Shown here piece after piece: positions 30,089-39,443 of a stretch of 64,000 bases of DNA. The translations under genes were made by a program, and so were the position numbers. Source of the DNA: Arachidicoccus terrestris. Its GTDB lineage: Bacteria > Bacteroidota > Bacteroidia > Chitinophagales > Chitinophagaceae. Under the pieces are notes generated by a model. It was not told the origin of the DNA, did not search any database, and saw only the letters and a program-made list of their open reading frames with translations. The number at the start of each line of letters is the position of its first letter. The first letter of the stretch is position 1. The stretch is taken from positions 3,782,001-3,846,000 of the forward strand of contig NZ_CP083387.1 in assembly GCF_020042345.1 (NCBI RefSeq), in the 5' to 3' direction.

Positions 30089-30844
30089 TTAAACAGCATC
30101 CTTAAGATCAATGACAGAAGCAATCTGCCGCTGATTTAAAACGACTTTTCCGACAACTATTATCGCAGGATTGGACAATCCTTTTATTCTGGCCAGATCA
30201 GCAATATTGTTTACCTGACCCGTTATTATTTTTTGACGTGGCGTGCAGCCTTCTTGTATAATGGCCACTGGTGTACTTTGTTTTCCGTGTCGGATAAAGA
30301 TTTCCATGATTTCATGCAGGTGATTCATTGCCATTAATAATACTATGGTAGCAGTTGATTGCGCTGCTAAATACAGATCATTAGCGAATTGCCCGCTCCG
30401 GGTAGTTCCGGTAATAACCCAGAAACTCTGACTGACGCCTCTGGATGTGAGTGGTATCATCGCTGCAGCTGGTACTGCCAGGGCACTGGAAATACCTTGT
30501 ATCACCTCTATATTCATACCTGCGGATTTTGCTGCCTCGATTTCTTCTGTTGCTCTTCCGAATACAAAAGCGTCTCCACCTTTTAGGCGAATAATGTGCT
30601 TATAGTGATTGGACGAACGAATGATGATTTCGCAAATTTCCTGTTGCGAATAGGAGTGCTGTCCAGCTCTTTTGCCTACATATTGTTTGACACATGAAGA
30701 ATTGCAATAATGTAATAAGGACGGATCGACTAATGCGTCATATAACACGAGGTCAGCTGTTTTTAAGGCGTTTATTCCCCTAAGTGTAATTAGATCAGGT
30801 GCCCCTGGTCCCGCACCAAGTAATGTCAAAGTAGAATGTTGCAT
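30089..30844 (-). CDS. cobA: Uroporphyrinogen-III C-methyltransferase
   Basis: 251 residues, SumT type. Adds methyl groups at C2 and C7 of uroporphyrinogen III to make precorrin-2, the branch to siroheme. Seen: LLGAGPGAPDLITLRGINAL (SAM site, signature 1), YDALVDPSLL, VGKRAGQHSYSQQEI, RLKGGDAFVFGRATEE (signature 2), PAAAMIPLTSRGVSQSFWV and LLMAMNHL. Divergent from nirB across 162 bp of extremely AT-rich DNA, which fits supplying siroheme for NirB. No fused CysG-like dehydrogenase/chelatase domain, so the final steps need another gene. Confidence 0.95.
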   Translation of the reverse strand: MQHSTLTLLGAGPGAPDLITLRGINALKTADLVLYDALVDPSLLHYCNSSCVKQYVGKRAGQHSYSQQEICEIIIRSSNHYKHIIRLKGGDAFVFGRATEEIEAAKSAGMNIEVIQGISSALAVPAAAMIPLTSRGVSQSFWVITGTTRSGQFANDLYLAAQSTATIVLLMAMNHLHEIMEIFIRHGKQSTPVAIIQEGCTPRQKIITGQVNNIADLARIKGLSNPAIIVVGKVVLNQRQIASVIDLKDAV

Positions 30845-31006: not shown

Positions 31007-33529
31007 ATGAAAAAAATAATTGTCATTGGGAACGGCATGGTGGGTTATAAGTTTTGTGAAAAACTAGTAGCTAAAGCAGTAAAAGGGAGTTATCATATGA
31101 CTGTTTTTGGGGAAGAGTCTCGCCCAGCATATGACAGAGTGCATTTGACCTCCTATATTAACGGCACCTCTGCAGCGGAGTTAACGCTCGCGTCTGAAGC
31201 ATGGTATGAGAGCCATGGAATTGATCTCCATTTAGGAGATCCTGCCCGCAAGATAGACCGGACTGCTAAAACAGTTGTCACCGAAAAAGGACTGGAGTTG
31301 ACATATGATATTCTGGTTATGGCAACGGGTTCAGCGGCTATGGTGCCACCCATTCATGGTGTGGAGAAAACAGGCGTTTTTGTATACCGAACCATAGATG
31401 ATCTGGATAAGATCGTGGGTTATGCTGCGGGTGTTAAAAAAGCAGCTGTCCTGGGCGGCGGGTTATTAGGATTGGAAGCCGCCAAGGCAATGGTAGATAT
31501 CGGGATTGAAAAGACTTATGTGATAGAATTTGCACCGAAATTGATGCCTCGTCAACTGGATGATACCGGAGGGGCTGTACTTCGTAGTAAATTATCTGCT
31601 TTAGGGCTGAGAGTGCATACCAGAAAGCATACTTATCAGGTATTGGGTAAGGACAGGATTACGGGTATTCAATTTGTGGATGAAAGCGAGCTTTCTGTGG
31701 ATATGTTGGTCATTTCTACGGGAATCAACGCCAGAGATGAACTAGCAAGGGACGCAGGTCTACCGACCGGCACCCGAGGAGGTATTGTTGTGGATGATAC
31801 AATGCGCACTGAAGATCCTGCTATTTATGCGATTGGAGAATGCGCTGCTCATGGTGGTATGATCTATGGATTAGTGGCGCCCGGGTATGATATGGCTGAA
31901 GTGGCCGTCACGCATATTATTATGCATCATTTAGATGGCGAAAAAAAGCAAAGACTTTTTACAGGCTTTGACATGAGTACAAAGCTAAAATTGATCGGTG
32001 TGGATGTGGCTAGTTTTGGTGATCCGTTTTTAACGGCTGACAAAGCACAGCATGTGATCTATGAAGATAAAGTCAATGGTATTTATAAACGGCTGAATAT
32101 TTCTCTAGACGGAAAGTATCTGTTGGGAGGTGTTATGGTGGGAGAAGCTTCTCAGTATAACAACTTATTACAGTATTATAAAAATAATATGCTACTGCCC
32201 AATGCGCTTGAAAGCCTGGTGTTTTCAGAACAGAAAGGAGATAAACCGGCGGGCATGGGCTTAGAGGGATTACCCGACGGGGCCTTAATCTGTAGCTGTG
32301 AAGGCGTCACTAAAGCGGATATTTGCCAGGCTGTAAATGATGGGCATGAATCTGTAGATGAGATAAAAAAATGTACGAAGGCGGGCACCGGTTGCGGAGG
32401 TTGTGTTCCAATGCTGAAAGATCTGGCAGCCATTACATTAAAAGCACAGGGAAAGGCGATTCACATGGAAATCTGTGAACATTTTACATATACCCGCCAG
32501 CAGCTCTATGATCTGATTAAACTGGAACATTTGCGTGCATATGACGAAGTGTTGGAAAAACATGGTAAAGGCGATGGCTGCGAGGTCTGTAAGCCTGTTG
32601 TCAGTTCGCTGATTGCCAGTATTTCAAATGAAATGATCCTGCGCCAGAACAATGACACCGCTCAGGACAGCAATGACCGCTTTTTAGCCAATATTCAGAA
32701 AGGAGGATCTTATTCTGTTGTACCGCGGATCCCCGGCGGAGAGATCACTCCTGATAAATTACTGACTATTGGGACTGTAGCCAAAAAATACAATCTATAT
32801 ACGAAAATCACGGGCGGACAACGCATTGATATGTTTGGTGCCCATCTGAGTGATTTACCGCTTATCTGGAAAGAGTTGATTGATGCGGGGTTTGAGAGCG
32901 GACATGCTTATGGAAAATCGCTTAGAACAGTGAAGAGTTGCGTCGGCAGTACCTGGTGCCGCTTCGGGTTGCATGATAGCGTAAGCTTTGCAATCAAGAT
33001 CGAAAACCGGTATAAAGGACTTAGGACTCCTCATAAGATCAAGTCTGCGGTGTCAGGGTGCATTCGGGAATGTGCGGAAGCTCAGAGCAAGGATTTCGGC
33101 ATTATTGCAACAGAGAAGGGATGGAATTTATATGTATGTGGTAACGGTGGCAGTAAGCCGCAACATGCCTTGCTATTAGCACAGGACCTGGATAGCGACA
33201 CCTGTATTCGTTATATAGACCGTTTTTTGATGTATTATATTAAAACTGCGGACCCATTGACCCGGACTGCCACATGGCTGAATAAACTGGAAGGAGGGAT
33301 TGATTATCTGCGCAAAGTAGTGGTTGAAGATTGTCTTGGAAAAGGGCTTGAGTGGGAAGCTGAAATGCAGGCTATTCTGGAACACTACGAATGTGAATGG
33401 AAAGCCGCAATAGAGGATCCTGTAATCCGCAAACGCTTCTCTCATTTTGTCAATGCACCTGAAGAGAGAGATCCAACGATTGAGTTTGTTGCCATGCGTG
33501 ATCAAAAAAGAGTCGCGGAGTGGCAGTAG
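31007..33529 (+). CDS. nirB: Assimilatory nitrite reductase [NAD(P)H] large subunit
   Basis: 840 residues, complete NirB. Residues 1-300: FAD/NAD(P)H oxidoreductase (IVIGNGMVGYKFCEKL, ILVMATGSA, AAVLGGGLLGLEAAKAM, AIGECAAHGG). About 420-480: BFD-like [2Fe-2S] domain (LICSCEGVTKADICQAV ... GTGCGGCVPML); a second BFD-like repeat follows (HFTYTRQQLYDLIK ... GDGCEVCKPVV). From about 560: ferredoxin-like half domain and the siroheme/[4Fe-4S] site SCVGSTWCRFG (C-x5-C) and SGCIRECAEA (C-x3-C). Reduces nitrite to ammonium with six electrons. First gene of the plus-strand operon, 26 bp before nirD; sumT supplies the siroheme branch. Confidence 0.97.
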   Translation: MKKIIVIGNGMVGYKFCEKLVAKAVKGSYHMTVFGEESRPAYDRVHLTSYINGTSAAELTLASEAWYESHGIDLHLGDPARKIDRTAKTVVTEKGLELTYDILVMATGSAAMVPPIHGVEKTGVFVYRTIDDLDKIVGYAAGVKKAAVLGGGLLGLEAAKAMVDIGIEKTYVIEFAPKLMPRQLDDTGGAVLRSKLSALGLRVHTRKHTYQVLGKDRITGIQFVDESELSVDMLVISTGINARDELARDAGLPTGTRGGIVVDDTMRTEDPAIYAIGECAAHGGMIYGLVAPGYDMAEVAVTHIIMHHLDGEKKQRLFTGFDMSTKLKLIGVDVASFGDPFLTADKAQHVIYEDKVNGIYKRLNISLDGKYLLGGVMVGEASQYNNLLQYYKNNMLLPNALESLVFSEQKGDKPAGMGLEGLPDGALICSCEGVTKADICQAVNDGHESVDEIKKCTKAGTGCGGCVPMLKDLAAITLKAQGKAIHMEICEHFTYTRQQLYDLIKLEHLRAYDEVLEKHGKGDGCEVCKPVVSSLIASISNEMILRQNNDTAQDSNDRFLANIQKGGSYSVVPRIPGGEITPDKLLTIGTVAKKYNLYTKITGGQRIDMFGAHLSDLPLIWKELIDAGFESGHAYGKSLRTVKSCVGSTWCRFGLHDSVSFAIKIENRYKGLRTPHKIKSAVSGCIRECAEAQSKDFGIIATEKGWNLYVCGNGGSKPQHALLLAQDLDSDTCIRYIDRFLMYYIKTADPLTRTATWLNKLEGGIDYLRKVVVEDCLGKGLEWEAEMQAILEHYECEWKAAIEDPVIRKRFSHFVNAPEERDPTIEFVAMRDQKRVAEWQ

Positions 33530-33555: not shown

Positions 33556-33969
33556 ATGAATAATACAGAGATGACACCTAGCTCAACCCCTTGGTTTTTT
33601 GCCTGTCAGGTAGGGGATGTGCCACGAAATGGCGGTGTTTGCGTGAAGCGCGGAACTGAACAGATTGCCCTATTTCATTTCGCAAGAACGGATAGTTGGT
33701 ATGCGACTGAGAACCTTTGTCCACATCGCCGTCAGATGGCGCTTAGCCGTGGAATGACGGGATCAGCCGGTGAAATGCAGGAGCCGAAGGTGGCCTGCCC
33801 TTTCCATAAGAAAAGTTTTTCGTTGCTTTCAGGTAAATGTCTGAGCGGTGAGCATTATCAGATAAAGGTATATCCCGTGAAGGTTGAGGCGGGCAATGTG
33901 TATATAGGCAAGGATCCGATCCGACAGGATATAGATGCGAGTGGAGAATACCTGGAATGCGCCTCTTAG
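33556..33969 (+). CDS. nirD: Nitrite reductase small subunit, Rieske type
   Basis: 137 residues. NirD-like Rieske fold with a full set of cluster ligands: C55-P-H57 and C81-P-F-H84. E. coli NirD lacks these ligands, so this version should hold a real [2Fe-2S] centre, as in many assimilatory systems. WFFACQVGDVPRNGG is the typical N-terminus. Partner of NirB, 26 bp upstream. Confidence 0.92.
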   Translation: MNNTEMTPSSTPWFFACQVGDVPRNGGVCVKRGTEQIALFHFARTDSWYATENLCPHRRQMALSRGMTGSAGEMQEPKVACPFHKKSFSLLSGKCLSGEHYQIKVYPVKVEAGNVYIGKDPIRQDIDASGEYLECAS

Positions 33970-34094
33970 GTCCTCTGAGCTAAAGCAGTTTTCCACTGCA
34001 TCCGTCTAAGTGGTTGAAATATGAGTCGTGTAAAGATCTGGCTGCTGTCGGCAGCCATTTACTAGTCCTGAAGACAATGTAAAATAGGTAGGGT

Positions 34095-37000
34095 ATGCCG
34101 GTAAGTTATAAAACAACATGCTGTTACTGTGGTGTGGGGTGTGGCATTACTGTCCATAAAGACAGAAATGGTGCGCTTCAGGTAGAAGGAGATAAAGAGC
34201 ACCCCGTAAACCGGGGGATGCTTTGTAGCAAAGGTATGAACCTTCATTATACGGTAATGGACAAGACGGATCGCCTGCTGTACCCTGAAATGCGTTATCA
34301 TAAACAAATGCCCAGAAAAAGGGTAAGCTGGGAGACGGCCTTGGAAAGAGCCGCCAGAACATTCAGTGCAATCATTAAGAAATATGGTCCTGAAAGTGTC
34401 GCCTTTTATGCCTCCGGCCAGTGCCTGACCGAAGAATACTATATTGTCAACAAACTGGTTAAAGGTTTTATAGGCTGTAATAATATTGATACGAATTCAA
34501 GACTCTGCATGAGCAGTGCCGTGGCTGCCTATAAAATGAGTCTGGGTGAAGATAGTGTACCTGTTTGCTACGATGATATTGAAGAGACCGACTTAATTTT
34601 GGTAGCAGGAGCTAATCCTGCATGGTGTCATCCGATCGTCTGGCGCAGGGTAGAGGCGGCAAAAGCAGCTAATCCCAATCTTAAGATTATCGTCAGTGAT
34701 CCCAGAAAAACACAAAGCTGTGCCTTGGCGGATATACATCTTCAAATAACGCCCGGAACAGATATTACACTCCACCATGCGCTGGCAAGAATCCTGATCG
34801 AAAACGGAAATATAGACTGGGGTTTTATCCATAGACATACGGAAGGATTTGAAGATCTTCAAAAAAAAGTGATGGAGCGCTCTGTGGAGGAGGCGGCCGC
34901 CATTTGCGCCGTTGCCGTTGAAGATATCTATGCAACCGCCGCCATGATCGCGGAGGCCAAAGGGCTGATCACCATGTGGACTATGGGGCTCAATCAGAGC
35001 GTAAGGGGTGTGGACAAGAATCTTTCGCTGATCAATCTGAACCTGATTACTGGCAGGATCGGCCGACCTGGTTGCGGTCCTTTTTCTCTCACCGGACAGC
35101 CCAATGCCATGGGGGGTAGGGAGGTAGGCGGACTCGCGAATATATTGCCGGCGCATCGGCTGCTATCCAGCGAGGCAGACAGGTTGTACGTGCAACAGTT
35201 CTGGAACGGAAAACCTATTAAGGAATCACCGGGGCTTACTGCAACAGAGATGTTTGAGGCGCTGGAAACCGGGACATTAAAAGCTATCTGGATCATGGGA
35301 ACCAATCCACTCGTCAGCCTGCCTGATGTCCGTAAAGCGGAATCCGCCTTATCAAAGGCCGCTTTTGTTGTCGTGCAGGAGATCAGTAACCAACCCGAGA
35401 CTTTGCATTATGCTGATCTGATATTACCTGCCGCCGCATGGGCAGAGAAGGAAGGCTCCATGACAAATGCTGAGCGAAGAATTACATATCTGAGCCAGAT
35501 CACCGAACCGCCAGGGGAAGCCAGGCCCGATGCCGAGATACTTTGTGATTTTGCTAGAAGAATGGGGTTTCACGGATTTGATTTTGAAAGTAATGAAGCG
35601 ATCTTTTTAGAGCACTGCAGGCTGACTGCAGGTACAAATATGGATATCAGCGGATTGGACTACAGCATTTTAAAAGCTAAAAGATCTGTCCAGTGGCCTT
35701 ATCCTAAAGACCCGGTCAGCCAGCATACCCCCCGTTTATTTGCGGATGGTCAATTTTATACAAAATCAGGGAAAGCAATGCTTTACGGACCGGCTGATCT
35801 GAACGAATCGGAGGCGCTGTCTGATAAATTACCCCTGATCCTGACAACAGGCAGGATCAGAGATCAGTGGCATACCATGAGCAAAACCGGGAAAGTGAAT
35901 AAGCTCAAACAACATATTGACCGTTCTTTTTTGGAGATGCATCCAGAGGATGCACGGCAAAGGGGCATAGAGGAAGGAATGCTTGTGGAGGTGTCCGGGG
36001 CCAGGGGCATTGTTCGTGTAAAGGCTAAAATCACGCCTGATATCAAAAGTGGTGTCGTGTTTTTGCCAATGCATTGGGGAAAGATACTGGGCAATGACCT
36101 AAACCGGGCAAATAATATTACACATTGTTTACTGGATAAAGTTTCCAGGCAACCGGATTTTAAGTATGCGGCCGTTCAGGTCAGCAGATATGTCAAGCCC
36201 CGTCAGCGGATCCTGATCGTTGGTGCCGGTGCTGCTGCCTATGGTTTTGTGAAGCGTTACCGGGAGCTCAATGCATATGATGATATCGAAGTGTTCAGCA
36301 AGGAAGATCAGCCATTTTATAATCGCGTCATGCTGCCTGATTATATCAGCGGAGCACAGCATTGGGAACAGATTGTCAAAATGACGGAGGCAGAAGAAAC
36401 CGATTACCGGATACAGCTGCATAGAGGCATCAGTATTGTAAATATTGACAAGGCGGGAAAAAGGATACAAGATGATCGCGGCAATTGGCATATCTATGAT
36501 ATCCTGATCCTTGCTACCGGGAGCAGGCCTTTTATATTAAAAGATACCCCTAAAATGCGGGGCATTTTTGCCATGAGAACCCGCGGGGATGCAGATGGTT
36601 TTTTGCGCTATCTGGATCGCAAAGCGGGAAAGGTCGTGATTATTGGCGGTGGTCTATTGGGTATTGAACTGGCTGGTTCATTAATGGAAATAGGTGTTCC
36701 TGCACTGATTCTGCAACGCTCTTCTAAATTGATGGACCGCCAACTGGATACGCTGGGTTGTCAGTTACTGCATGAGGAACTAGTGGAACGGGGAATTGAG
36801 GTATTGTTCAACGAAGAAGTGGACCGATTTGTGGGGGATGAGAAATTAACAGGCCTCCGGCTTAAAAGCGGTAACAGCATCACCTGCCAGGCGGTAGTCA
36901 TGGCTATAGGTACCCGCCCCAATATAGAGTTGGCACAGCTGGCAGGATTAACCTGCAAGAGAGGTGTCGTGGTGAATGCTTATTTAGAAACCAGTGCACC

Positions 37001-37595
37001 TGATATTTTTGCCCTGGGCGAGATCGCAGAACACAATGGTAGGCTTTATGGTATTACTGCGGCAGCTGAACAGCAGGCGAGTATTGTAGCCAGTTATCTT
37101 CATGGGGATATCGCCCATTATTATGAAGGGTCGCTGCCCATGAATTTACTGAAAGTACACGGTATCCAGGTGTGTTCGGTTGGCATTGCAGATGCTCCGA
37201 AGGGAGACACTTCCTTTGAAGAAGTGATCTTTATTGACCGCTCTAAAAGATATTATAAAAAGTGCATTGTCCATCAGGATAGGTTAGTCGGAGCGATTCT
37301 GATCGGTGATAAAACTGAGTTCCTGGAATTTAAAAGCTTGATCGAAAATAAAACGGAGCTCTCTGAAAAACGATTGCAACTGCTCAGGAGCGGTAAACCG
37401 GCGGAACCGGTACTCGGTAAGATTGTCTGTTCCTGTGGTAATGTAGGAGAGGGTAATATTATGAATAAAATTAAAGATGGATACCTGGATCTTAAGGCGC
37501 TTTTTCAGGCGTCAGGAGCGGGGCAGGGATGCGGAAGCTGCCGTTCAGAAGTGCAGGCCATCCTGGACAGAACCCTGACGACATCATTGGTCTAG
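34095..37595 (+). CDS. Assimilatory nitrate reductase fused to NAD(P)H flavoprotein and [2Fe-2S] domain
   Basis: 1166 residues combining what is often two proteins (NasA and NasC/NasB). Residues 1-690: molybdopterin oxidoreductase with an N-terminal [4Fe-4S] site (C9-x2-C12-x3-C16 ... C44), NIDTNSRLCMSSAV (Mo-ligand Cys), WTMGLNQSVRG, GRPGCGPFSLTGQPNAMGGR and a C-terminal molydopterin dinucleotide-binding domain (LILTTGRIRDQWHTMSKTG). Residues about 700-1100: FAD/NAD-binding flavoprotein (ILIVGAGAAAYGFVKRY, YDILILATGSRPF, VVIIGGGLLGIELAG, IFALGEIAEHNG) like NirB's. Residues about 1108-1166: BFD-type [2Fe-2S] (IVCSCGNVGEGNI ... GQGCGSCRSEV). No signal peptide, so cytoplasmic and assimilatory. 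The single chain can carry electrons from NAD(P)H to Mo. Confidence 0.93.
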   Translation: MPVSYKTTCCYCGVGCGITVHKDRNGALQVEGDKEHPVNRGMLCSKGMNLHYTVMDKTDRLLYPEMRYHKQMPRKRVSWETALERAARTFSAIIKKYGPESVAFYASGQCLTEEYYIVNKLVKGFIGCNNIDTNSRLCMSSAVAAYKMSLGEDSVPVCYDDIEETDLILVAGANPAWCHPIVWRRVEAAKAANPNLKIIVSDPRKTQSCALADIHLQITPGTDITLHHALARILIENGNIDWGFIHRHTEGFEDLQKKVMERSVEEAAAICAVAVEDIYATAAMIAEAKGLITMWTMGLNQSVRGVDKNLSLINLNLITGRIGRPGCGPFSLTGQPNAMGGREVGGLANILPAHRLLSSEADRLYVQQFWNGKPIKESPGLTATEMFEALETGTLKAIWIMGTNPLVSLPDVRKAESALSKAAFVVVQEISNQPETLHYADLILPAAAWAEKEGSMTNAERRITYLSQITEPPGEARPDAEILCDFARRMGFHGFDFESNEAIFLEHCRLTAGTNMDISGLDYSILKAKRSVQWPYPKDPVSQHTPRLFADGQFYTKSGKAMLYGPADLNESEALSDKLPLILTTGRIRDQWHTMSKTGKVNKLKQHIDRSFLEMHPEDARQRGIEEGMLVEVSGARGIVRVKAKITPDIKSGVVFLPMHWGKILGNDLNRANNITHCLLDKVSRQPDFKYAAVQVSRYVKPRQRILIVGAGAAAYGFVKRYRELNAYDDIEVFSKEDQPFYNRVMLPDYISGAQHWEQIVKMTEAEETDYRIQLHRGISIVNIDKAGKRIQDDRGNWHIYDILILATGSRPFILKDTPKMRGIFAMRTRGDADGFLRYLDRKAGKVVIIGGGLLGIELAGSLMEIGVPALILQRSSKLMDRQLDTLGCQLLHEELVERGIEVLFNEEVDRFVGDEKLTGLRLKSGNSITCQAVVMAIGTRPNIELAQLAGLTCKRGVVVNAYLETSAPDIFALGEIAEHNGRLYGITAAAEQQASIVASYLHGDIAHYYEGSLPMNLLKVHGIQVCSVGIADAPKGDTSFEEVIFIDRSKRYYKKCIVHQDRLVGAILIGDKTEFLEFKSLIENKTELSEKRLQLLRSGKPAEPVLGKIVCSCGNVGEGNIMNKIKDGYLDLKALFQASGAGQGCGSCRSEVQAILDRTLTTSLV

Positions 37596-37638: not shown

Positions 37639-39126
37639 ATGCAGAAGGCAAAAACATATAGTGTTTCTTTTAAAGGAGGGATTGTCTCACCAGGATTCCT
37701 GGCAGATATCCTGGCAGTGGCAGCAACAGCGGGCGTAAAGCAATTGCGGTTGGGCTTAAGGCAACAGTTGCTTATCGATATAAAGCAAAGCTATCAGGCT
37801 GCATTTGAAAAAACATGCCTGACCAGGGGGATTATGATAGAAGAGCGGCATCTGGCCAGCCCGGGTATTATGAGTGCTTATCCTGTCATTCATTTTAATC
37901 AGGAAGATAGTTGGCTTAGAGAAGGGGTGTATAAAGACGTTTTTGATCAGTTTGAAACGCCTATACGCTTTAAGGTGAATATTGTTGAATTCAACCAGAG
38001 TTTTGTTCCCTTGTATACAGGACATATTAATTGGATCACGACTGAAAAGCCGCATTACTGGAGACTGGCATTGCGACTGCCGAATTCAGGAGCTGTGTTT
38101 TACTGGCCTGAGTGGATCTATACCAACAATATAGCTTCGGTGTCTAGGGCGATAGAAGAAGTTTTAATGGACCCTGCACTTATAACGGGTGGGGACTGTG
38201 TTTTTTTTAAGAAATTGCTTCGCCGGAAATTAGACAGTATCAGTTACATTTATGTACCTGAAGAAAATATGGAGCATACGGCGAGGTTTTACCTTCCTTA
38301 CTATGAAGGGTTTAATAAAATGGATAACAGCTATTGGCTGGGGATCTATCGCCGGGATGAATATTTTGATCTGGCGTTTTTAAGGGAGATCTGTGAACTT
38401 TGCCAGCAATCAAAAATTGCGGAAATGTATACAACGCCCTGGAAGAGCCTAATCATTAAGGATATTGACCCTGGCAGCCGACCACGCTGGGATAGGATCT
38501 TGGGTAAATACAGGGTCAATGTCCGTCATGCAGCCAATGAACTGAACTGGCAGATAGAAGACCAGTCGGAGGAGGGACTCAGTATAAAAAGGGCGGTGAT
38601 ACGACATTTTGATAAGGAAGATGTGAGAACTTACGGGCTCTGCTTTGGCGTACAGATAAAATCGCATTCAACATTATTTGCCTCGGTATTGATTAAGAAA
38701 AAAGTAGTCCGCAATCCGCACAGGTTAAAGTCCCTGGATAGGTATGATATTCTCCATACGGCAGATTTTAACCCCAATACACAGCACTGGGTCCTCTTCA
38801 GGGAAGACGTCAAAAAGGAATTTATTGGAATCTATCTAGTTTCCTTATGTAAGGAGTTCTACAGCAGAACTGGTGAAGATCAGCCCGTCCAGTCGGGAAA
38901 TAATACGTCAAAGGAAACTGAGGATGTAAAGGCACAAAAAGAAGTCTATCAATGTAATGTATGTTTAAGTGCCTATGACCCGGAACAGGGGGATGCAGCG
39001 GTCGGAATTCCTCCGGGAACGGACTGGGAGCAGTTGCCCAGCAATTATTGCTGTTCGGTCTGTGGCGCGGAAAAACCCGCATTTAATCCTGTACATCTCG
39101 GTGTATTGCAATATATTGATGGATAG
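37639..39126 (+). CDS. Siroheme-reductase-like protein lacking cofactor cysteines, fused to rubredoxin
   Basis: 495 residues. The body has two nitrite/sulfite reductase-like half domains: FKGGIVSPGFLADILAVAAT with LRLGLRQQLLIDIK (about residues 10-50), and FYLPYYEGFNKMDNSYWLGI with MYTTPWKSLIIKDI and VNVRHAANELNWQ (about 220-310). Where active reductases have the C-x5-C and C-x3-C ligands for siroheme/[4Fe-4S], this protein has none (RFKVNIVEFNQSFVPLYTGH), so it should not bind that cofactor. The C-terminus (about 440-487) is a complete rubredoxin: YQCNVCLSAYDP ... YCCSVCGAEKP. It lies 43 bp after the nitrate reductase and 17 bp before the Rdx gene, inside the nas operon. Probably an electron carrier or assembly scaffold for nitrate or nitrite reduction; no function is known to me. 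Confidence 0.82.
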   Translation: MQKAKTYSVSFKGGIVSPGFLADILAVAATAGVKQLRLGLRQQLLIDIKQSYQAAFEKTCLTRGIMIEERHLASPGIMSAYPVIHFNQEDSWLREGVYKDVFDQFETPIRFKVNIVEFNQSFVPLYTGHINWITTEKPHYWRLALRLPNSGAVFYWPEWIYTNNIASVSRAIEEVLMDPALITGGDCVFFKKLLRRKLDSISYIYVPEENMEHTARFYLPYYEGFNKMDNSYWLGIYRRDEYFDLAFLREICELCQQSKIAEMYTTPWKSLIIKDIDPGSRPRWDRILGKYRVNVRHAANELNWQIEDQSEEGLSIKRAVIRHFDKEDVRTYGLCFGVQIKSHSTLFASVLIKKKVVRNPHRLKSLDRYDILHTADFNPNTQHWVLFREDVKKEFIGIYLVSLCKEFYSRTGEDQPVQSGNNTSKETEDVKAQKEVYQCNVCLSAYDPEQGDAAVGIPPGTDWEQLPSNYCCSVCGAEKPAFNPVHLGVLQYIDG

Positions 39127-39161
39127 GATTAAACTGGCAGATAATGAATAAAAATACAGTG

Positions 39162-39443
39162 ATGAAACCAATTATTGAAATTGAGTATTGCCCCAAATGT
39201 GGCTGGCTATTAAGGTCTGCATATATCGCACAGGAGTTATTGACGACTTTTACAGAGGAGTTGGGAGGGATTACACTTATCCCCTCTGCCGTAAGCGGAC
39301 GTTTTGAAATGCGATTGGATAAGAAAGTGATTTTTGATCGTAAAAGTTACGGAGGTTTTGCGGATATCAAATGGCTTAAAATGACCGTGAGAGATTTGGT
39401 TGCCAAAGACAAGCCGCTTGGACATACGGAGCGCCATAATTGA
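39162..39443 (+). CDS. SelT/SelW/SelH (Rdx) family redox protein, Cys form
   Basis: About 93 residues from ATG 39162 (an in-frame ATG at 39144 overlaps nothing and is also possible). Thioredoxin-like Rdx family: EIEYCPKCGWLLRSAYIAQE gives the C-x2-C redox centre, here with Cys in both positions where animal homologues have selenocysteine, then GGITLIPSAVSGRFEMRLD and DRKSYGGFADIKWLKMTVRD. No enzymatic role is settled for bacterial members. Its position between the rubredoxin fusion and moaD is suggestive of a redox or sulfur-transfer role in the nitrate system. Confidence 0.88.
   Translation: MKPIIEIEYCPKCGWLLRSAYIAQELLTTFTEELGGITLIPSAVSGRFEMRLDKKVIFDRKSYGGFADIKWLKMTVRDLVAKDKPLGHTERHN

Follow-up and report, generated by a model that had tools for sequence, protein, structure and literature searches.

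A rubredoxin protein with a ligand-stripped siroheme-reductase fold in the nitrate assimilation loci of Bacteroidota

The protein of 495 aa encoded at 37639-39126 on the plus strand of the window (the whole 64,000-nucleotide stretch of Arachidicoccus terrestris DNA that was analysed), given here the working name NRX, is almost certainly a dedicated protein of the nitrate assimilation (nas) pathway built on a sulfite reductase (SiR) fold that has been stripped of its cofactor ligands. The SiR fold and the rubredoxin at its C-terminus are each familiar, and their combination with the loss of ligands is undescribed in the open-access literature searched, where no description of NRX was found. None of the curated families covers the whole NRX body. 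The role that we favour, with a probability of about 0.4, is that of a non-catalytic electron mediator or regulator bound to the fused nitrate reductase NasA and tied to the nitrite reductase NirB.

Gene and domain organization

The open reading frame starts with the ATG at 37639 and its stop codon ends at 39126, exactly as given in a preliminary description of this DNA. The features of NRX are as follows.

37639-39126, plus strand: NRX, 495 aa, degenerate NiR/SiR-fold body followed by a C-terminal rubredoxin (ORF, Pfam, hhalign, 31 homologues)
37648-37848, plus strand: first ferredoxin-like half domain, residues 4-70, order E-H-E-E-H-E, an AlphaFold block of pLDDT 76-93 (hhalign map); contains the invariant R41 at the position of SiRHP R117 (hhalign map)
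37849-38295, plus strand: first NIR_SIR-like half, residues 71-219 (hhalign map); contains K112 at the position of SiRHP K217 (hhalign map)
38314-38526, plus strand: second ferredoxin-like half domain, residues 226-296, with PF03460 at 246-289 (AlphaFold secondary structure)
38392-38403, plus strand: C252-x-x-C255, located in helix 1 of the second half domain (residues 245-257 in the AlphaFold model)
38434-38448, plus strand: TPWKS motif, residues 266-270, with K269
38527-38883, plus strand: second NIR_SIR-like half, residues 297-415, missing the four [4Fe-4S]/siroheme cysteines (hhalign; PF01077)
38947-39087, plus strand: rubredoxin domain, residues 437-483, with cysteines 439, 442, 472 and 475 (PF00301; PDB rubredoxin matches)

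Reductase fold and loss of the cofactor ligands

The Pfam domain NIR_SIR_ferr (PF03460) matches NRX with 31.5 bits against a cut-off of 24, and its presence in 31/31 homologues rules out a chance domain call, while the Pfam [4Fe-4S] domain NIR_SIR (PF01077) matches neither NRX nor any of the homologues (0/31). Profile-profile comparison with hhalign aligns residues 4-415 co-linearly with the CysI/NirA set (390 columns, 97.4% probability, P 4.5e-11). The profile match is better to CysI than to NirA, and a descent specifically from NirA was rejected on this ground. AlphaFold predicts the body with low overall confidence (pLDDT 50), both ferredoxin-like half domains coming out better than the rest, and in a Foldseek search with this weak model the PDB ranks 1-31 are all NirA/SiR chains (E down to 7.8e-7). 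The full-chain model from three sequences is poor (pLDDT 43), and PDB sequence searches with NRX give rubredoxins as the sole matches.

Among the 31 homologues there is no conserved cysteine at the positions aligned with C434, C440, C479 and C483 of E. coli SiRHP; the alignment near C440, C479 and C483 varies between two runs, which leaves the exact equivalents unsure, and conserved cysteines are absent there in both. Beyond residue 296 the body has no conserved cysteine at all, the best columns being 335 (10/31) and 404 (8/31). The preliminary description had claimed a full-length NiR/SiR-like chain without its cysteines, plus a complete rubredoxin. The 390-column match and the Foldseek ranks bear out the first of these claims, C439, C442, C472 and C475 with a PF00301 match of 58.5 bits bear out the last, and the proposed alignment with NirA and CysI confirms the loss of all four canonical ligands. 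The words "without its cysteines" hold for these four ligands only, because a second cysteine pair in the body, C252-x2-C255, is invariant (31/31).

This pair and the retained basic pocket are both absent from the preliminary description. When read by eye against NirA sequences, both cysteine positions are alanines in NirA, and the pair therefore seems dispensable for the fold. It probably lies behind the sheet, outside the old cofactor pocket. R83, R153, K215 and K217 of SiRHP are presumably siroheme/anion pocket residues. On the E. coli SiRHP mapping, the position of R83 is R or K in 27/31 homologues and serine in the genus of the window, R117 is kept in 31/31, K215 is K or R in 21/31 and K217 is K or R in 30/31, R153 is lost, and Q396 is replaced by an invariant lysine (K269). 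The basic siroheme/anion residues are thus mostly retained, so that a bound ligand is possible.

Rubredoxin domain and its potential redox partners

The Pfam rubredoxin domain is matched by 28/31 homologues and the four cysteines are present in 30/31, including two shortened versions. In these two (L005 and L031, far apart in the tree) the rubredoxin is shortened between the CxxC knuckles with all four cysteines kept, and it could hold Zn, not Fe. The rubredoxin of NRX is the sole PF00301 domain in each of the 17 genomes where one scored; PF00301 has no match in the two NRX genomes with the shortened rubredoxin, in genome G126 (described below), or in five fused-NasA genomes that lack NRX. FAD domains of the PF18267 family are confined to NasA and NirB in the 15 NRX-containing genomes checked (G126, set aside, has none), which makes these two enzymes plausible reductases of the NRX rubredoxin. 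The FAD domain of NasA matches NorW, the NADH:flavorubredoxin reductase, with 165 bits, and residues 415-485 of NRX match the C-terminus of NorV. The match is confined to this stretch of NRX, and the diiron beta-lactamase-like and flavodoxin domains of NorV were not found.

The nas locus and its neighbours

NRX lies in a cluster with the following genes.

30089-30844, minus strand: cobA, labelled from sequence and operon context
31007-33529, plus strand: NirB, NADH nitrite reductase large subunit (TIGR02374, 1011 bits), presence partner of NRX by co-occurrence
33556-33969, plus strand: NirD, Rieske small subunit (TIGR02378, 101 bits)
34095-37595, plus strand: fused NasA, 1166 aa, molybdopterin nitrate reductase with a NorW/NirB-like FAD-NADH reductase (Rubredoxin_C) and a BFD [2Fe-2S] domain
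39144-39443, directly after NRX: Rdx, SelW/T/H-like, 99 aa, with a CxxC

NRX follows NasA immediately in nearly all loci, the gene ends abutting or overlapping in several, and the fused NasA is presumed to be its physical partner. A single small gene stands between the two in L037 (9799-10299, 167 aa) and L051 (7627-8433, 269 aa) and in no other loci. NasA columns that separate genomes with NRX from those without it are scattered and give no hint of an interface. The closest named relatives of NRX, in Arachidicoccus ginsenosidivorans and A. rhizosphaerae, have 68-69% identity; in A. ginsenosidivorans, nasA (L002, 6460-8575) is a series of overlapping open reading frames, from frameshifts or sequencing error, and NRX is intact. 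An Rdx homologue adjoins NRX in L002 and L003 and was undetected in the other loci. No nitrate transporter gene lies between nirD and nasA (33970-34094), where Hymenobacter differs, and a NarK-like gene is found elsewhere (G000:C1:4779166; E 8e-91, just below its cut-off).

Distribution and conservation

In the sample of 395 Bacteroidota genomes, full-length NRX is found in 29, fused NasA in 33 and both in 28, and NirB is present in exactly these 28, NRX thus occurring in every sampled Bacteroidota genome that has NirB. The remaining five fused-NasA genomes, without NRX and NirB, have beside NasA a NirA-type reductase with the canonical cysteines. The association of NRX with NirB has a Fisher P of 4e-6 among genomes that are related by descent and hence not independent, and the pattern is partly confounded with phylogeny, as the five exceptions come from three families. 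In some genomes (G316, G190) NirB is kilobases from NRX or on a separate contig. The link of NRX is presumably physical to NasA and one of presence and absence to NirB. In G126, NRX sits at a contig start (L063, 273-1553) and ends before the rubredoxin, possibly as a relic, and neither NasA nor NirB was detected in that genome. The view of its spread beyond Bacteroidota comes from a plasmid search, which gave four NRX relatives, all from Bacteroidota, and in the two annotated plasmid records the gene follows nitrate reductase under the name "rubredoxin"; viral contigs contain no NRX relative.

The preliminary description had seen in NRX a non-catalytic NiR/SiR paralogue of the nas pathway and had asked how often it co-occurs with nasA and nirB, and whether its homologues lie mostly outside nas operons. 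The co-occurrence is exact (28/28) and NRX stands directly after NasA nearly everywhere; together with the sole rubredoxin in the genomes scored, these results support that placement.

The 31 aligned homologues come from two classes of Bacteroidota and share 30 invariant residues. Codon differences in the body among three Arachidicoccus are 0.16-0.25, 0.11-0.16 and 0.53-0.54 at positions 1, 2 and 3, with dS saturated, and the body is under purifying selection; the rubredoxin part is more variable than the body. NRX is an old, selected family. A pseudogene or decayed gene was rejected by this conservation and selection.

Possible roles of NRX

According to the favoured mechanism, NRX would be a dedicated pseudo-enzyme without catalytic activity, one of the subunits with which Bacteroidota assimilate nitrate, most likely sited on the fused NasA; its NiR/SiR-fold body may serve as the docking and ligand-sensing part and the rubredoxin as the redox part. 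NADH would reduce the FAD of NasA or NirB, both rubredoxin-reductase-like, and the reduced FAD would in turn reduce the NRX rubredoxin, which could move electrons between the NADH-oxidising sites and both reductases. Nitrate reduction might in this way be balanced against nitrite reduction by NirB, keeping nitrite and NO from accumulating, as has been proposed for NasG in Paracoccus. We infer complex formation, the direction of electron flow and the sensing role of the pocket. A mediator on NasA would account for the sole rubredoxin and its sole FAD partners, for the link to NirB and for the missing rubredoxin of the one genome without detectable NasA and NirB. It also agrees with the NorW-like character of the NasA FAD domain, the position immediately 3' of NasA, the retention of the rubredoxin cysteines even in the shortened versions and the selection on the body, and NasG is a precedent (PMC4724949). 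However, the lineages with NirA-type reductases have fused NasA and no NRX, the NirB-NirD-NasA cluster of the proteobacterium Shinella lacks NRX as well, the phylogenetic component of the NirB pattern weakens the association, and a mere carrier leaves the kept 410-aa fold, the invariant CxxC and the basic pocket unexplained. An extra carrier is not obviously needed either, because NasA and NirB each have FAD, [2Fe-2S] and catalytic centres.

The same absences bear on the unlikely idea that NRX is an assembly factor which delivers or protects the siroheme, Fe-S or Mo cofactor of NasA or NirB, with the rubredoxin giving redox or oxygen protection. Rubredoxins serve in hydrogenase or photosystem assembly, NRX has a siroheme-holding fold with pocket residues retained, its gene touches nasA or overlaps with it at several loci and cobA is in the same region; yet NRX is missing where fused NasA pairs with the siroheme enzyme NirA, as well as from the proteobacterial cluster. 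Protection against NO or nitrite, in which the NorW/Flp-like FAD domain of NasA would reduce the NRX rubredoxin and this in turn a heme or siroheme ligand in the pocket that scavenges by-product NO or nitrite, is unlikely. It draws on the NorV and NorW matches, on the basic pocket (R117, K217 and R83 positions) and on the nas operon of B. japonicum, where Flp is paired with the NO-binding haemoglobin Bjgb (PMC4724949), but the canonical heme/siroheme ligand is missing, R153 is lost, the genus of the window has serine at the R83 position and a replacement ligand residue such as H297 is a guess. Less likely again is a new redox enzyme, whose SiR fold would hold another ligand in the basic pocket, together with the invariant CxxC, and be driven by its own rubredoxin; it might, for example, clear NO or nitrite while nitrate is being assimilated. 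A role in binding nitrite and passing it on from NasA to NirB, as a linker or channel, would suit a basic NiR-derived pocket and the co-occurrence with both enzymes, but it leaves the rubredoxin unexplained and fits poorly with NirB being kilobases away or on another contig, and it is improbable. That NRX is a relic pseudo-enzyme in the course of being lost is hardly credible: the four catalytic cysteines are gone and the G126 copy has no rubredoxin, but the invariant residues, the third-position bias of the divergence and the perfect co-occurrence already contradict it.

NRX would fill a gap in the known nitrate assimilation apparatus of Bacteroidota, a major phylum among soil and water bacteria, and would clearly exemplify how a siroheme-reductase fold can be put to new use once its cofactor ligands are gone. 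Since in the genomes scored it is the sole rubredoxin, with two obvious partners, the function of the rubredoxin is directly testable by genetics.

Comparison with known systems

NRX shares with NirA and CysI/SiRHP the two ferredoxin-like half domains, the co-linear full-length fold and apparently most of the basic pocket, but it lacks the four [4Fe-4S]/siroheme cysteines, R153 and PF01077, and it has a rubredoxin and an invariant CxxC elsewhere. CobG, precorrin-3B synthase (TIGR02435), belongs to the same superfamily and is matched weakly by 12/31 NRX members (best 8e-6), although not by the NRX of the window; unlike CobG, NRX is without the four cysteines and is set in a nas operon. The NorV/NorW system resembles NRX in its C-terminal rubredoxin and in the NorW-like FAD reductase encoded next door, whereas NRX has no diiron or flavodoxin domains and its body is a NiR/SiR fold. 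In Paracoccus, electrons from NasB reach NasC and NasB through the ferredoxin NasG, and B. japonicum, which uses NirA, is without nasG (PMC4724949). The NasB-NasG-NasC system of Paracoccus is like that of NRX in that a small redox protein goes with one enzyme of the NirB type and one of the NasA type (PMC4724949), but the Paracoccus protein is a ferredoxin, while the locus in the window also has NirD and its extra carrier is a rubredoxin mounted on a pseudo-reductase.
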